A DNA stretch of 64,000 nucleotides, from NCBI RefSeq assembly GCF_000149955.1, contig NC_030995.1, positions 1,612,001 through 1,676,000 of the forward strand, written 5' to 3'. The stretch is from Fusarium oxysporum f. sp. lycopersici 4287 (taxonomy: Eukaryota; Ascomycota; Sordariomycetes; Hypocreales; Nectriaceae). A program made the position numbers and the translations under genes. Shown piece after piece: positions 50,465 through 62,900 of the stretch (the first letter of the stretch is position 1; each line of letters starts with the position of its first letter). Under the pieces are notes generated by a model that ran no database searches, was not told where the DNA came from, and saw only the letters and a program-made list of their open reading frames with translations.

Positions 50465-53400
50465 TCATACTGAGCCGCGAAGCCGTTGCTTTCTAGCCAA
50501 CCAGTCCCCGAGCATATTGTCAAGTTGCTGTAGCTGCGTTAGTATTGTTGCAGAATAATATATGCCCAATGAGGCGACGAGGAAAATACTCACAGTGGTA
50601 ATCTCCGCTAGCTTCGCGTTCTGCTCTCTGAACATACCACTAACCACCGGGTGGTCTTTGCCAACAGGTTCCACGTCTGTCTTGTCGTACACGACCATGA
50701 GAAGATCTCGAACGTGCTCACCATCATCAAAGAAGGCACGAAGCTTCTCGTCATCCCAGCCAGGTTCTTTGGCACTTTTCGTTGAGCTACTATCCTTGGG
50801 TGTCTCGTCACCAGGCATGAGCTCTGGTGACGGTACATCGGAGGACGAGCGACCTTCTTGGGAGGACGTGTCGATCTCCAGTGCTGGTGGCCGTGTTGCG
50901 TTAACAGGTGACACCTGCACTGGTGATTCTGACAGACGATCCTTCTGGCCTTGGCCTGCCGCTGTGGATGCGTTCGGCTTGGCGGCTGCATCGAAGCTAT
51001 CAGGGAACGCTCCTGGCAGTTGTGGCCGTAGTCCACCCTCGGGCTTCTTCTCGGCGGGTTGCTCTGGTGTCGTTCGGTTCGTAGGCTGAGACACATCATC
51101 CTCATCGGAGCTTGACAATTCATCCAGATCCATCAATGGGCGAGGCTTGACTGTCTTGGTTGCCCTAGGCTCGCCTCCTGTGCTTGCGCTGCGGCCCAGC
51201 GCCCTCGCCAATGCCTTCGTATCGTCGTGTTGTGCAGCGGCTGAGGAGGACCGTACCTTGGCCGGATCCCCGCCAATTTGTGAATTTGATGGCACTTCAT
51301 GTGTCTCTTGTGTCTCGGGATTGACGATCCGCATCGACGCCGGTGGCACGTTGGACACATCGTTGACCCGAGACTCGGCCAGATAAGCTGCGAGTTCCAT
51401 TGTCGATGAGGTCTCCCCGCCCTTGCCAGGAGATGTTTCAGTTCGGGGCATCTGCTTTTGAAGTTTGCTAGTGCTCCGTTGCGGTTGTCTGTCAGGCGAC
51501 GCGACCTCTTCAATTGACTCGCTGTCCCGAGGCTCCGATACAATATCCATAGAGCGCTTGCCAAAAGATTCGTCGTCATCGTCAACCGACTTCTTTCTGT
51601 CCTTTCTGGAAAAGAAACTTCGGATGGCGCTCGGCTTCTTTTCCTTCTCTTTCCGAGACTTATCTTGGTGCTTCTTCTTCTCCTTATCGGACATGAGCTC
51701 CTTGTCCATCTTATCAAGACTTCCTCGGGACTTGATGTCCTTGGTTGTTGAGTCCTGGGAAGGCCGAGGTTGATTGTCGTCTCGTAGCAAGTTAGGCGTG
51801 AGAGTAATCTTCTTGGTCTCGACTGTCTCATCTCTAAAGAAAGAGTCGGTGTTTCTGACAGTACCATTGCGGGATCTGCTGGGGCCTTCCTGTTTGTTGT
51901 CGAATAGTATTTCCTCACTGCTTCTCGTCTCATCTTCCTCTTCCACAGTGTCGACCTTCGACGGCTCCATAGCCATTTTAACTTCTTTATTTGAACGGGG
52001 CTTAAGAGGCTCAACCCTGGCGCTCTCCTCTGATGAATCATCTTCTATGATCGATATTGTTGAAGCTGGATCTCGGGTATCTTTCTTTTGTTCTTGTTGT
52101 TGATCTTGCTTGGTTGTGGTGGTCGAGCCGGCGAATAAGTCGTCCAAGTCTTCTTCGTCGGATGAATAGTCGTCGATTTCAGTGTAGTCATGGTACGTTG
52201 GGGAAGTGAATGTGACCGTTTTGCGTCCAAATCTAATTGGCGATTTGAACGTCTGTTGCTTCTTCTCTGCTGTATCCCCTAACATAGTTGCAGAGAGCTG
52301 TATTGATTTTTAGTAACAATTTTGGGTCTTGGACCAAGTCAATTTACGTACATCAACATTCCTGTGTTTATTCAGACGTGCTAGACGTTCCGTCGGCGTC
52401 TCAATATGCTCTGCGGGTAGATATCCTGGTATTTCTTTAGTCACTAGCCAGTAGAAGTGGAAATCTTTGCACTTACCAATGCTGCTGTCTTTAACAACTC
52501 TGACCAGCCACCAGTAGCTGTTGCTATCGTCTAGCAAAACCATAGTGTCACCTTTGGTTGCATTTGCTTGACCTTCAACGGTAGCCACGAAAGTGTGAAG
52601 GGCGTAAACGAATTCGAAATCAATGTCCTCTATGTCTTGTAAGCACTCGACCGCCCAGCCGGAGTCAATGAAATCGTAGTCGTCAGGAATGGAGAGTGCA
52701 GAATCATCGTCTTCAAAAGATTCTTCGTAGGGAATAGTCAGCGCGGGATCGAAGTCGGGGGTTTCGTCGTCGTCCAAATCCGAATCGGATAGATCCAGCA
52801 TTGGATCACAGTCATAGAATATGTCCTGCTCTCTGTTATCGGCTACGGTGCCCTTTCCTCCAATACTCGATCCTTCAGCAGAAGGATGCTAGCCTTCATT
52901 ACTGTTGGACCTAAACTGTGGTTCCACTTCTTCAAATGTTTCGTGAAATTCGGCCGTCGAATTGGACGTTGTCCAGCTATCGTCGGGTTCGGGTTCGGCG
53001 TCGTTACTGTGCTCGTCGCGACCGTTATACTCACCATGAAGACGATGGTTCCGGACTTTCGTGGGCAATGCTCGTGGAAGCTGCGCAATTGCGCATGGGC
53101 TGGGTACACAATTGGGGGGTTCGGGATATGGCGAGCAAACTCTGATGCCGCTTGAACCAGAGATACTGGGAGTACTACTCCTTTGCGAAGGTAGGGAAGA
53201 GACACGGCGCGGCCATGCCACAGGGGCAGCGACGGGGGAGCACCCACCATCTTCAATCGAAGGCGAACTAGAGATCTTATCCATCATATCGTCATCGAGG
53301 TCATCGTCGCCGTCGAGCTCGCCCTCATCCGAAGATGAGACGCCTCCATTCTGCGCAATTGCCAGTGCATCTTCTTGGTTCATATTGCTATTCTTGTCGC

Positions 53401-54176
53401 GTGCACCCTGTGCGCGAGTATTCCCACTCGTAGAATTTGCGACAAGTTCGTCTGCGAAGGAATCAATTTCGTCGAGGCTGTTGCGGTTGTCGAGAGAAAC
53501 TCTTGGAGAGCGTCGCTGTTCGTCTGCAATGTCGTGTGTGACCTCACGAATAGTCTCAGCTTGGTGGGGACCTAGGGAGTTGGCGTTGCCGCCCAGACGT
53601 GGGCTTTTCGAGTGGTCCTGGGCGGATGGAGAGTGATGATCTTGAAGATCGATAGTATCTGCGATCGGGGGAAAGGTTCGTAAACGTCAGTTTGTGGTGT
53701 CGTCAAAAGAAGCGTGTGGACACAAGGAATGAGAAAGCAGAGGACTAAGTCGAGTGGTTGGAATGTATCGTGACTTGCAGCGACCCCGGAGAGCAATAGA
53801 AAGGTTCGAGCTTGGACAGTGACCAGGGGGCAAGGGTAGACGAAAGTACGATGAAACGTAAAGAAAAAGAAAGTAATAAAAAAAGAATGGGCAAGGGAGA
53901 AGTTGGCCGAAGGTCTACTTCAAGGGTTCCATGTGGTTGAATAGACGAAGTTTGTATGTAAAGGGGGCAGGGGAAAGAAAGTTGTACTCTAAGAGGGACC
54001 GACGAAACAACACGAGGATGAGGCTGCGCAAGAGGCGATGCACCCCAATCGCAAATCCCAAAGGCTGAGACTTAGGGTGACATTGGCGTTGGCATCTCGT
54101 TCCAAGTATAAAAGGCAGGACAGCGAAGGCAAAACACTAGGCACATACCGGCTCGGACGATCGATGGTCGTGTCAT
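50465..54176 (-). CDS. Tea4/Bud14-type SH3 polarity factor, with one in-frame TAG
   Basis: Cell-end/polarity landmark that recruits protein phosphatase 1 and links microtubule tips to actin (Tea4/Wsh3 in fission yeast, Bud14 in budding yeast, TeaC in Aspergillus). Exons: 54176-54149 (MTRPSIVRA), 53658-52477, 52425-52352, 52297-50594, 50533-50465. Together they read 1018 aa plus one in-frame TAG at codon 266 (52889-52891). The frame before and after the TAG is the same. The 265 residues before it are Ser/acidic-rich. Downstream lie an acidic stretch, an SH3 domain at about 359-413 (YALHTFVATVEG, YWWLVRV, GYLPAEHIE) and the PP1-docking KTVTF at 454-458, so a protein ending at the TAG would lack both. 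The TAG is either recoded (see the hairpin at 52881-52897) or removed by a 192-nt intron, 53034-52843 (GTGAGT donor, in phase), which would give 954 aa. Loss of function by mutation or a sequence error is possible. Confidence 0.85.
50534..50593 (-). other. 60-nt, frame-preserving intron encoding a hydrophobic stretch
   Basis: Donor GTGAGT, branch/acceptor ACTAACGCAG, so it is clearly an intron. It is a multiple of three without a stop. If retained it would insert 20 mostly hydrophobic residues (VSIFLVASLGIY...) after AEITT near the C-terminus of the Tea4-type protein. Confidence 0.75.
52881..52897 (-). promoter_or_regulatory. tRNA anticodon-arm-like hairpin around the in-frame UAG (candidate A-to-I editing site)
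   Basis: On the coding (minus) strand, GAAGG (52897-52893), loop CUAGCAU (52892-52886) and CCUUC (52885-52881) form a perfect 5-bp stem with a 7-nt loop. That is the size of a tRNA anticodon stem-loop. The stop codon UAG occupies loop positions 2-4. Its adenosine (complement of 52890) is at loop position 3, equivalent to wobble A34, preceded by U as at U33. Yeast tRNA-Ala(IGC) has the loop UUIGCIU (from UUAGCAU), so only the first loop base differs. A-to-I change would turn UAG into UIG, read as UGG (Trp). Confidence 0.6.
53659..54148 (-). other. Long (490-nt) first intron of the Tea4-type gene
   Basis: The donor GTATGT follows nine codons plus one base; the acceptor CGCAG is before ATACTATCGATC. 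It keeps phase and joins MTRPSIVRA to DTIDLQDHHS. This start is inferred, because no ATG precedes a stop in the second-exon frame immediately upstream. Confidence 0.7.
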
Positions 54177-56683: not shown

Positions 56684-59600
56684 TTAGTTGGCGATCTGGG
56701 CCATACGCTTAGACATACTGTCGCAATAGTTAGCATATGTTCTGGTATCATGGTATCATGGGTTACACTTACAAGTCGTAGAAGGCAAACTGGCTGGGGC
56801 TGCTGCCGAACTCGTACACGAATCGACTGGCAAGGTAGGAGCCGAAGATGCTTCGGAGGTAGGAGTCGGGGATGCGAGCGATCAAGGTGTCGAGACCAAT
56901 CTTCTCGAGGAGAAGACGGGGCAGAGCATCTTGAAGAACAGATCGGCGGATCTTCTCGTTGTCCCAGAGGTCGGAGTGCTGGAGCTTCTCATCAAGATCG
57001 GTAATGGCAACGGAGAGCTTGTCAGAGAGGATAGATCGGGGAGTTCCGGTCTGCTCATGCTCGCGCCAGATAGCCTCAAACTCAAGGCGGGCGTTCTCCT
57101 GAATCTTGAGCTGAACCTGCTTGACGTAGTCCTTGTAGAACTGAGGAGCCTCGCCCTGGGCGTTGTGGCACATGTTCTCAACGAAGCCCTCGTCGTCGAA
57201 AGACAGAGAAGCAAGAACCTCAAGGGAGGACGATGTCACACCACCCTTGTTGGCAGAGGCATCCTTGTACAGAATGCAGCCAGCAGCCTCGAGGCGAAGC
57301 TTAGCCTCCTGGGTAATGAAGAGGTTGGCTCCCTCAACGAGGTAAGGGATGATGCACTTGCCATCCTTGATGAGACGGTTGACCGAGATGAGGTCAATGG
57401 AGGCGGGACGACCACCACAAGGGACGAAGCAGTCGACACTGCCAGTGTCACGGAGATGGAAGGTGTTACGGAACGATGTACCGTTGTTGATAACCTCGCC
57501 ATTGGGGAGAGTGATGTTGACGTCGTCGCACAGGACTCGGTAACCCTCGGGAGACAGCTTGGAAACATCGTACTCGATGATCATCTTGCGGCCGTTGGCA
57601 AGGCGCAGAAGCTCGTCACGGTCGAGACCGTTGGGGTCAGCAAGAACTCCAGAGCCATCCACAATGGCAGTGTACTTCTCGTTACCAAGCTTTATCTCGT
57701 TGCTGCCCAGGTCACCATCGGGGCCACCAGTCTGCATCTTGCGGATAGTAGAGGGGTCAAGCTCGAGCTTTCGGTAGATACCCTTGACGTACTCACGAAC
57801 AGACAGGGTGGTCATGCCGTAGGTGTCGTGAGGAATACCACCAAGCTTGGGAGACTTGCCAGTGAAGAAGGACTTCCACCAGGGGGCGCCACGGGATCGA
57901 GCGTGCTCAGTAGCCCAGTCGACCAGCTCAGCGGTGTTCTCATCAGGGCCCATGAAGATGATCTCCTCCTTGCCGTAGAGGTCGACAACAGGGTTCTTGA
58001 TACCAGGGGTCTCGGCGGGCAGAAGAAGATCAAGGATACTATCAATGTACTTCTCGAAAGCCTCACGGGCACGGTTCTGCTGCTTAGGGTCCAACAGAAT
58101 AACACCCTTGGAGCCACCCTCGGGAATGTCCTTGTTCTTGCGCTGCTGTGTGCTGGCAAGACCGTAGTTCTCATCGAAGATGCTGCGGGCGTTGATGCCA
58201 TAAGCCTCCTTGTTGCGAGACTTGACGATTCGGATACCACCGCGAGAGATATCCTTGAATCGGAGGTGGAAACCTCGGGACTCAGAGCTGATGACGAGGA
58301 ACATGCCGTAGAGGGGCTTGGGGTACTCGACCTCGGGGAGGAAAGATGGGTCAAGACGGAAGCTCAGAGCGACCTTGGTAGGGGTGAAGTAGTTGGTCTT
58401 GAGGATGGCGTTGTTGAACACACGGAAGGCAGTGAGAACCATCTCATCATGCTCGTTGTTGACGTTCTTGGAGATCTTGTCCTTGAGAGCGTCGTCGGAG
58501 AGAACCTCGACGGACAGGCTGGAGGAGACAACCTTCACGGGGTCATCCTGGTCCTTAACAAGGTGGATGTTGGCGAAAGAAGCGTAAAGAGCACGAACGA
58601 GACCGGGGTAGTTCTGAATAATCTCATAAATGTACTCAGGAGTAAATGTCTCAGAACGGAGACGGCGCTTCAGGTTAGAAAGGAGGGCCTGCTGAGCGTT
58701 GTTCTTAACATCCAGAAGCTCGGCAAGAGTAGAGTACTCTGGTCCCAATCGGTTCAGGAAGTGCTGAACGAACACCCAAGCGGAGTGGGCGTAGACGGAT
58801 TCCTGAAGGCTGAGCTGTCCATCGAGGAAAAGGTTGTGGAACTTGTTGTGGGGGAGACAGTAGAGGAGAGAAACCTCCTTGGAGATCTGGTCAATGGACT
58901 CCTCAATTGAAGGGAACTGTCCACTGCTCTCGACGGTGTCAGAAGTAGGTCGGAGGTAGACACTCATGACGGTGATACCGTTGGAGAACTGCTCGAGGTA
59001 CTTTCGAGATGAGGTGACGCCATAGTAGTGGTAAAGGTCACTGAGGGCAGAGAAAAGACCCTGGGCAGTGCGAGAGCGGAAGGCAACGACCATTCGCTTC
59101 TCGTCGGTGTTCTCAATATCGAAGACCTCGATGACGGGACCAGCTCGGTTAACGGCGAGCTCAATGATGTCCTGGTAGATTTGCTTGGTGTTGTCAGTGG
59201 CCTTGCGGAGGAAGCCGTTGTCGGCAATGAGCTCGAGGTTGGTCTCCTTGGGGTCGGTCTGCTCAGGTGGAGTGGCAAACTGGCACTGGTAGACGAAGTA
59301 ACATCGGAGAGTTGCCTTGGAGCTGGGGCTCACGACAGCGGGAGATCGGAAAGTCTCAACGCGGTACTTGCTGTGGCCGGGGTGATCAATGTACTTGGCC
59401 TCGAGGCGTTCCTCATAGCGAGGACCAGCAGTGTTGGTCTTGCCAGCAACGCTGGTATCAATGTAGATGGCATGGTCGTTAGCCTCCATATCCAGTCGGA
59501 TCTCCTCCTGCTTATCCTCGCGAGCGAAGGAAGCGACCTTAGCGGCATACAGAGAGGTGATGTGGCTGGAGATGACATCGGGGGTCTCAAGCTCGAAGTA

Positions 59601-59975
59601 GACATCATCGATGCCAAGCTTCTCGTAGAACCACTCGATCTGCTCATCAATTTGAGGCTCGGGGACGAAACCAGCAGCTGAGATGATAGACTTCACAGTC
59701 TTCTTCTGCTCAGGCTTGCCAGTGAACTCAGGGGCAATGTAGCCAACGGTGGCAGATCGCAGAATGCGGTGGCCGTTGCCGCCATTGCCATTTTGCAGAG
59801 GAACGGAGAAGTGAGTAGGCTGGGGAGAAGGACCACGGCTGGCCTCAGTGGCCTTGACGTTAGCCACGGGGTTGGCGGAAATGGCAGTCATGTTGGATTT
59901 CTGATATGGATCTGTGTAATCAGGGAAAGTCTGAGAGGGCAGCATGTTAGTGGGCGATTCTGTTATAGGCGCCAT
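56684..59975 (-). CDS. NAD-specific glutamate dehydrogenase (GDH2 type, about 115 kDa)
   Basis: Oxidatively deaminates glutamate to 2-oxoglutarate and ammonium with NAD, a catabolic enzyme of nitrogen metabolism. Two exons (59975-56773 and 56717-56684) give 1078 aa, the usual size for the large fungal NAD-GDH. The start MAPITESPTNML is the first ATG in the open frame; the reading frame stays open upstream, but the ATG-less stretch there overlaps the TATA box. Marks are IPEGGSKGVILLDP, IIFMGPDENTAELVDWA and GIYRKLELDPSTIRKMQTGGPDGDLGS in short pieces such as MQTGGPDGDLGS, and FVPCGGRPASIDL. Exon 2 supplies MSKRMAQIAN after FAFYDF, completing the conserved end; without splicing the frame stops one codon later. 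Confidence 0.97.
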
Positions 59976-62900
59976 CTTGGCGAGATGCCTAGATGGAGAG
60001 TGAAGTTTGGTGGTGTAAACGCAAGACGACAAAACGAAATGATTGAAAACAGTGATGGGATGAACAAGATGGAGACGAGATGAGCCAGCTGCAAGTGTCT
60101 TATATAGACAGTTCGGCTTGAGCAAACAAGGAAGCCTGAAGATAACAGTTCTCCTGTCGTCACCGCTGTAGCCAACTCAACCAGAGTTTCGGTCAGAGCT
60201 CGTGACTCAAAGCGAACTAAGGAAAAGAGGCATTTGATACGGGGCTGCTGACCCAGAGGCTGCCCTGCGCCCGTGAAGGCCAAACTCAATGATCCAGTGA
60301 TCATTGGTATTGAACCCGTCCCGGGAGGCTCATTCCAGGTCCTATCCGGGGCGTCCATGCTCGCACTCACTGGACGCCACTAGATCGGGGACCTGAAAAT
60401 GCACTGCAGATGCTGGGGCTGGGGCTGGGGCTGTTTGCAGCACCTAATGCGAACCGCTCAGCTCGCTGGGAAGCTTATCTCTGATACGGAGCACCAGAAT
60501 CCCGGTGTAAGCCGCCCGGGCCGGCTCTCGTATTCTCGCCATTGGGTAGTGAAAATCAGGGGGAAGCCAATCAACGGCGCCATGGATTCGCGATAAGGGC
60601 AAAATGACGAAGGGGTAGTGGGCAGTGCTGTAGTCAGATAAGACTTATCCGCTACTTACCGGCTAGAGTTTGTGACGATCAATTCGTTTCGTCACTGAAA
60701 ATAGATAATTCTAGGTCGGTAATGCCGAACTTATAGCGGGGCCTTCTAAAAGAAGATGGCGAGAGGAAGTTATTCAGAAGAATAACAAGATTGCCGTAAA
60801 AGGTTCTCAGATGAGAGGAGGGTTGGTTAAAGTTCTGACGGCAGGTTAGTATATCTGTCATACACTGCCAACCTGAGCAGGCGTTTGACTCGGTGTGCAC
60901 GAACTCAGCGCAGCCATCCGTCAGCCCTGTCGTAAATAGAAACTGAAGACGGTATGTCTAGAACAAGAGATAACAAAAGCTCTCTTGATACGTCGAGGTT
61001 GGTTTGAGATGACGAGGTTCAAAGCTCAAGCCAGGACAGGGAATATGATCTCTAAATAAAGACGAGGTAGGAGTGATAAGGGGTTCAAGGTAGATAGAAG
61101 AAGGCTTCTTTTTGTGAGGAGAAGCAAATGCAAAATGCAATAGGTAATCAACAAGTTTGAGGTCAAGTGACTTATCTCTCCAACTTTCGAAGCCAGAAGA
61201 TATTGGGACTGGCGATGGAAGCTTTATATACTGTCCGTGTCTAAGTGTCTCTCAATGACGACCCAGAAGTCTACGATGGTACAAAGTACCTCGCGGTCTT
61301 TTACAATGGGGTACGTACCAGCATTAATGTCTCCATTGACTCCAAACATGTCGACATATTGCCTTCTCTTACACCGTCTCGCCTGTAGGTACCAAGTAAA
61401 AGTTGTCACGCTGCCATAAAAAAACCACATCCCTTGCCAGGTCCTGGTCTTCCGCTCACCTTGCCTACACACCCCCTTCCCGCTTGTGGGGCAGACCCTG
61501 CTGGGAGTTTGCTGGGCATGAGGCCCGGCGGGTGTTTATTTTGAGGTACGTGTTTGTTTTTTGCCTTTCATTTGCACCGGGCAGACCGGAGAAAAAGTGC
61601 AGTGGACAGCAATAGACACAGCGAATGACCCCCGCCACAACCCTCTACAGCAGCTTACTTACAGCACATGCAGCACATTCACAGAGCTTATGGTTTGCCC
61701 AGTCACTTGGTTCGATTTCCTCATATTTCACTTCGCAATCAGCAAAGTAGAAACTTGGCATACACAAGAAGAGATAGAAGTATTCAGACAATAAACATCA
61801 CCGGCCCGGTCGTCCTGAGGCCTCTCCTCTCCAATTGGTACCTGCTCGCTACTGTACTGTACCACTACCACCCCTCCTGAAGCGGAGCCCAGCCCAGCTA
61901 AGCCCGCCAGAAGAGTCGAGAAGAAAGAATTTTGGCTGCAGCAACACCCCCGATCGTGATCATGACCTCACGGAGTACAGTGCAGTACCTACAAGAAAAA
62001 GTCCCATTCAATTACCCAATAGTGCCTCTGGTCTAAACCTCAAAGGGAAGCCTTGTTTGGAACCTGACTTCTCTCGCCTGGACCAAGCGCCTGGTTCCTG
62101 AAGAGTCTGTAGGTGAGGGAGCCCCCAGGAATTATTCAGATTTACCAGTGGGGAAGAGGCCCGGTTATTCGAGGCTCTGCAGTTTTTGCATGGAATCCCG
62201 CCTTCTCCAGATTTTCGTTTGACACCACTAGTGCAAATTTGTTGCCAATGGGAGAGTTGTTTGCTAGACTTTAACTCTTCTGCCAGTTTACGTCGATATC
62301 TTGTAACAACTTCACATACCACACATTCTCACATAATGGATATCAGCGTTTAGGAAATGGCTTGAAAAGTTTTCAGAGACTAGCTGGGTCAGGACAAACG
62401 CTCTATTTGACAGGTTGGTCACTGTAAGTCGACATAAAGAGCCTCCAGCTCCATTTGCAGACTTTGATAACGTAAGTCTACATAACTATCCATACGCTAT
62501 GCATGAAAACGGCACCACACACTTAGCTTCTTTCGTTCACCCAAACGGTGTGGAGAATGGTGCGATTCAACTCAATTCACTCACCACTCACCTTGGCTCG
62601 CCCTGCGGGTTTGTCTCTGCGAGTCATCGTCAATGGCAACTTCGTGACATGCAGATCCGACCTTGAATTCCGGTTTTTCAATGCTCTCTCTGTTTTGGGT
62701 TTCAGAGGATTATTACAGCGTTGGACTACGGTATCTCACAAGATCCCGGTCAACATGCACGTTGCCCTGGCTGTGCTTGTCCAAGTGGTCGTAATAACTG
62801 CCTGAAATGATGTTGCCATGATGTGCTTCAAGCTGAGCCGGACCGTATTAATAAACCATACAGTTCTGACATGCGAAACGGCCAGGCCAACAAGAATGAT

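Follow-up and report, generated by a model that had tools for sequence, protein, structure and literature searches.

A Tea4/Bud14-type gene of Fusarium oxysporum with a premature stop codon inside an optional intron

A 64,000-nucleotide (nt) stretch of the Fusarium oxysporum f. sp. lycopersici 4287 genome (contig NC_030995.1, positions 1,612,001 to 1,676,000; hereafter the window) holds a Tea4/Bud14-type gene with an in-frame TAG, which an earlier look at the letters alone (the original prediction) had proposed as a site of adenosine-to-inosine (A-to-I) RNA editing. We read this gene as the F. oxysporum-complex orthologue of FgBUD14 of F. graminearum, with a premature UAG, widely kept in Fusarium, lying inside an in-frame optional intron and three possible outcomes, and give this reading a probability of roughly 0.87. 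Splicing of the intron would yield an 812-amino-acid (aa) Bud14 with the SH3 and PP1 motifs; retention with the UAG unedited would yield a 265-aa N-terminal fragment; retention with editing of UAG to UGG would yield a 1018-aa protein. The switch is a conserved one of an already known kind, published in essence for FgBUD14, whose UAG at position 1334 lies in intron 2 and which is subject to alternative splicing and RNA editing in sexual reproduction (PMC11156358). The features are as follows, in window coordinates.

50465-54176, minus strand: Tea4/Bud14-type gene, ATG at 54176, five exons, 1018 codons with the TAG read through
54176-54149, 53658-52477, 52425-52352, 52297-50594 and 50533-50465, minus: exons of this gene; the last acceptor may instead be 50527
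52630-53247, minus: exitron-like intron of 618 nt, optional and in frame, GTGGGT...ACATAG, containing the TAG; junction shared by 24 of 240 listed homologues
52889-52891, minus: in-frame TAG, codon 266 (exon 1 joined), candidate edited A at 52890
52881-52897, minus: hairpin GAAGG-CUAGCAU-CCUUC around the TAG, perfect 5-base-pair (bp) stem and 7-nt loop
52493-52603, minus: SH3 domain core, a Pfam SH3_1 match that extends into exon 3
52208-52222, minus: KTVTF in the translation of the gene model, presumably a PP1-docking type motif
53022-53034, minus: possible second donor, GTGAGTATAACGG; joined to the acceptor at 52630 it would take out 405 nt in frame, the TAG included
52866-52916, minus: 51-nt micro-intron with donor GTTTAG that skips the stop, implied by the F. 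odoratissimum model P0001 (PH joined to IGG); coordinates set by hand

The gene and its optional intron

The Tea4 protein aligns with the F. odoratissimum database model P0001 (97% identity, coverage 100%), with a homologue of F. oxysporum f. sp. raphani (97% identity, coverage 67%) and with the F. graminearum protein P0014 (alignment at 78%, coverage 100%). A 60-aa segment of its SH3 domain has one match in the genome, which thus has a single SH3 gene of the Tea4/Bud14 type; the budding yeast counterpart of Tea4 is Bud14, according to an excerpt of PMC4737401. The SH3_1 score of 22.1 bits is slightly below the cut-off of 22.9; an intron interrupts the domain. Both this domain and the KTVTF motif (52222-52208), which we take to be of the PP1-docking type, lie downstream of the TAG, as the original prediction had said.

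Homologues were drawn from a search with the whole protein (1474 matches, best 120 listed) and one with the 265-aa frame as N-terminal query (536 matches, best 120 listed), giving 240 listed homologues. In 24 of these 240, SIED or a close variant is joined to EDIDFEF, the junction made by removing 53247-52630. This 618-nt segment has GT-AG ends, with a branch-like CTTAC about 10 nt from the 3' end, its length is a multiple of three, and when retained it is open except for the TAG, all as in an exitron. Its removal takes out 206 codons, among them the TAG, and the resulting 812-aa protein retains both the SH3 and the PP1 motif. Two long unbroken proteins with the junction (P0010, P0011) come from contigs of about 3.2 kb that look like assembled RNA, because the other introns are missing too. 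A contig of a relative that likewise looks like RNA (P0042) retains the optional-intron region and begins after the stop. The segment 53247-52630 would be the counterpart of the FgBUD14 intron 2, and splicing and editing, as in F. graminearum, may both occur in this species.

This optional intron had been overlooked, and two claims change with it. The splice first considered, from 53035 to 52842, gives way to the junction 53247-52630 that homologues share, and the corresponding intron 53034-52843 is dropped as the main alternative. Nor is there support for making full-length protein depend strictly on active editing: the TAG lies inside the optional intron, and since the spliced 812-aa form needs no editing to retain the SH3 and PP1 motifs, editing is not the sole route to an SH3-containing protein. 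Joining of the second possible donor, at 53034, to the acceptor at 52630 is used by none of the 240 listed homologues. Many orthologues nevertheless have the residues GEY that are encoded at this donor-like site, GGTGAGTA (53034-53022), which would fit the retention of a second donor.

The stop codon, its hairpin and its conservation

Open frames in the same register flank the TAG at 52891-52889, with 265 aa upstream and 192 aa downstream, as originally described, and the perfect 5-bp stem with the 7-nt loop CUAGCAU was likewise confirmed from the sequence. The candidate A is loop position 3, with a U immediately 5'. Published editing preferences are U at -1, G or A at +1 and +3, and a hairpin loop (PMC11156358); Feng et al. 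2022 in mBio report the same preferences, with adjacent letters outweighing the hairpin (PMC9600606, in part). At our site U at -1, G at +1 and A at +3 all match, and as in premature stops corrected by editing, an in-frame UAG stands between conserved coding sequences with its A in a predicted hairpin loop. Together with the editing reported for FgBUD14, this bears out the proposal that the stop is of the kind that Fusarium corrects by A-to-I editing.

With both strands counted, the window has 1252 TAGs; a perfect Watson-Crick hairpin of 5 bp and 7 nt in the same register surrounds 4 of them, or 12 if G-U pairs are allowed, so that the chance of one at a pre-chosen TAG is about 0.3-1%. The hairpin by itself is unremarkable within 64 kb; it is remarkable once combined with a conserved in-frame stop. 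Its folding energy is ordinary against shuffles (z of -0.96 for the 17-mer, -1.42 for 51 nt, -1.72 for 101 nt and -0.73 for 181 nt). Ensemble prediction gives mean stem-pair probabilities of 0.99, 0.99 and 0.98 with flanks of 30, 60 and 100 nt, and a probability of 0.99-1.0 that the candidate A is unpaired. In the predicted minimum-energy fold the hairpin is embedded in a longer, imperfect stem; a rival 7-bp hairpin just 3' (AUCCUUC-UGCU-GAAGGAU, -8.3 kcal/mol alone) loses in the ensemble.

Among the best 21 N-terminal homologues (P0121-P0141), 16 end at the same point as our TAG, judged by eye from the final letters and from the distance to SIEDG (116-136 residues; 118 here). The residues before the shared end are SNEG, SNEV, SNKG, DDGG, DDEG, DDES, MDEG, MHEG, SHEG or SKKG. 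Two others (P0132, P0135) end near the shared place with different letters, and three avoid the stop, P0121 and P0122 by other introns and P0138 by the junction of SIED to EDIDF. Consecutive GenBank locus numbers reveal a gene split in two at the stop in F. austroafricanum, F. longipes and Fusarium sp. NRRL 66182. The protein downstream of the stop is conserved as well, 17 proteins matching parts of residues 250-345 at 53-96% identity. The stop is not confined to one strain, and judging by these proteins it appears to be old and widely kept in Fusarium. A pattern search for orthologue DNA in two contig collections returned 3 and 16 matches, none from a relative.

In other Sordariomycetes (P0144-P0221; e.g. 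Hypoxylon, Daldinia, Coniochaeta and Tolypocladium), N-terminal Tea4 frames also terminate within the optional intron, at lineage-typical ends (ESSM, FDTP, RLTKA or CRPEG directly before the stop). Stops may possibly have been gained there repeatedly.

By an indirect numbering argument, the position is also consistent with FgBUD14. Counted from the ATG on genomic DNA the candidate A is at 1287, against 1334 for FgBUD14; the latter fits if intron 1 of F. graminearum is 471-495 nt long (490 here), assuming that the tail from the last shared residues of P0014 to the stop corresponds to that of F. poae. The gene is likely the FgBUD14 orthologue. Deletion of FgBUD14 strongly reduces croziers and asci (excerpt of PMC11050156), and the protein localises at crozier tips and interacts with FgAma1 (excerpt of PMC12582100). 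The published editing enzyme is Tad2-Tad3 with Ame1 (PMC11087585, in part), and we infer that this complex would act at the BUD14 UAG; the deaminase family PF00383 has nine matches in the genome, not sorted into Tad2 or Tad3.

The loop had further been taken as a mimic of the tRNA-Ala(AGC) anticodon loop. CUAGCAU and UUAGCAU are one base apart, which is a match of letters, and with 30 of 63 scored tRNA matches inspected, tRNA-Ala(AGC) was not recovered from the genome. The commonest A34 tRNA among the 38 tRNA genes seen is Thr(AGU), with nine genes, whose loop CUAGUAA is two bases off CUAGCAU. The mimicry is a likeness of letters and is unproven.

Literature searches found no paper joining Tea4 with A-to-I editing in Fusarium; by title, none of the papers found under Tea4 and Fusarium, or under exitrons and fungi, deals with this subject. 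PMC9408904 and PMC9605648 name FgBUD14 among their references only.

Alternative accounts of the stop

Several points weigh against an edited FgBUD14 orthologue. Conservation was read from proteins, where the TAG codon and the stem are invisible, and automatic alignment fails to place the last letters of P0128 and P0131 at the stop. Across residues 250-345, not one of the 17 matching proteins reads straight through with tryptophan at the stop; seven tryptophan text matches occur among the 240 listed homologues, six of them elsewhere in the protein, and P0054 (Conoideocrella, ENGWCS) has its W one residue off the site in one alignment and not in another. For the orthology we rely on homology and on the numbering rather than on a locus identifier. 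Finally, the F. oxysporum complex has no known sexual stage, so that editing may never happen in this lineage.

The strongest rival is that splicing alone matters in the complex: the intron would be removed whenever the protein is needed, and the TAG would be left over, without harm, from a sexual ancestor. This account shares the anatomy and the orthology with ours and differs on editing in the complex; we consider it possible, if doubtful. It is favoured by the apparent lack of a sexual stage in F. oxysporum, so far as we know, by the RNA-like contigs and the 24 of 240 listed homologues without the region, and by the frames of other Sordariomycetes, which end at other lineage-typical places nearby as if stops were tolerated. 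However, the 192 aa after the stop are open and conserved in protein sequence, and the RNA-like contig P0042 of a relative retains the region.

We think it decidedly improbable that a micro-intron (51 nt, 52916-52866, or else 53034-52873) removes the stop and leaves a mature RNA free of it. Several Fusarium models do skip the stop by varied introns (P0001, P0002, P0003, P0005, P0014, P0121, P0122), but micro-introns are rejected because these database models disagree with one another, and the donor GTTTAG is poor. An excerpt of the CHE1 paper describes just such an artefact at another conserved premature stop of Fusarium (PMC11169179), and the 51-nt intron is probably an annotation artefact too.

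Ribosomal readthrough, which would produce the long form with no editing, is more improbable still. It could draw on the UAG-C context, which is permissive in other systems. The editing reported for FgBUD14 (PMC11156358) nevertheless makes it unnecessary. A sequencing error or strain-specific mutation has a negligible chance, as nothing was found in its favour and 16 of the best 21 homologues, of several species and sources, share the end point; a chance stop is rejected because the stop is conserved.

A second copy of the hairpin sequence, and known systems

The 17-mer of the hairpin, GAAGGCTAGCATCCTTC, occurs exactly twice in the 61.2-Mb genome, both times with an in-frame TAG between long frames.

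L041:1501-1517 = G000 C1:2343992-2344008, minus: exact second copy of the BUD14 hairpin 17-mer, in a MutL-like gene, from a genome pattern search

Here 791 aa are open before the TAG and 230 aa after it. Upstream of the TAG the frame matches MutL/PMS proteins, whereas a Pfam search with the 230-aa part gave no match; both this gene and BUD14 read EG-stop-HPS. The chance expectation for a second exact copy is about 0.007 (2 x 61.2 Mb / 4^17), and a reversed control pattern has no exact match in the genome. With mismatches allowed, the pattern has 20 matches in all against 7 for the control, 18 of them with one or two mismatches. The exact copy is a new observation and one lead worth a look. We consider it unlikely that the 17-mer is a portable editing element, through which a single editing activity could recode two proteins together, a polarity factor and one of recombination or mismatch repair. 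Speaking against a shared element, the hairpin is not the predicted fold at the MutL-like site (mean stem-pair probabilities of 0.16, 0.0 and 0.0 with flanks of 30, 60 and 100 nt), and none of the 10 near matches checked out of 18 lies between two long open frames, the longest frame before the TAG having 65 codons, with 15 after (L077); those left out were six further copies of one repeat-like match, one of another and one without a TAG. A literature search on editing and mismatch repair in F. graminearum gave nothing on the subject by title. Should the MutL-like copy be edited too, it would provide a defined substrate with which to study recognition by Tad2-Tad3-Ame1.

Elsewhere in the window, a plus-strand open frame of 726 aa (56730-58910), with no match in a Pfam search, runs antisense to an NAD-glutamate dehydrogenase gene (frame 56769-60176, minus). 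Some Tea4/Bud14 proteins (P0002-P0004, P0046, P0145) carry the database names 'ATP dependent RNA helicase' or 'NAD-specific glutamate dehydrogenase'. These look like misnamings, the second perhaps taken from the gene next door.

FgBUD14 is reportedly the subject of a paper by Liang et al. 2021 (Environ Microbiol 23:5052). Our gene resembles it in being of the Tea4/Bud14 type, in having its UAG in what would be an alternatively spliced intron and in a position consistent by numbering (1334 vs 1287 from the ATG), and differs in its host, for which we know of no sexual stage. Persistence of the arrangement in such a lineage is a natural test of whether sites of sexual-stage editing decay after the loss of editing or are sheltered by splicing. 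CHE1 is similar in that its UAG lies in a hairpin loop, is conserved among related Fusarium and has attracted three kinds of annotation artefact; however, it is a zinc-finger gene edited in hyphae, for which the excerpt describes no optional intron (PMC11169179). In PUK1, AMD1 and FgAMA1, too, sexual-stage editing corrects stops in the coding region, but the review mentions no optional intron around them (PMC11156358). In BUD14, three known layers would meet in one gene: an optional intron, a premature stop and editing. Exitrons of plants and animals are introns that are also coding and a multiple of three in length; the optional intron of BUD14 differs from them in holding a conserved stop codon of its own.
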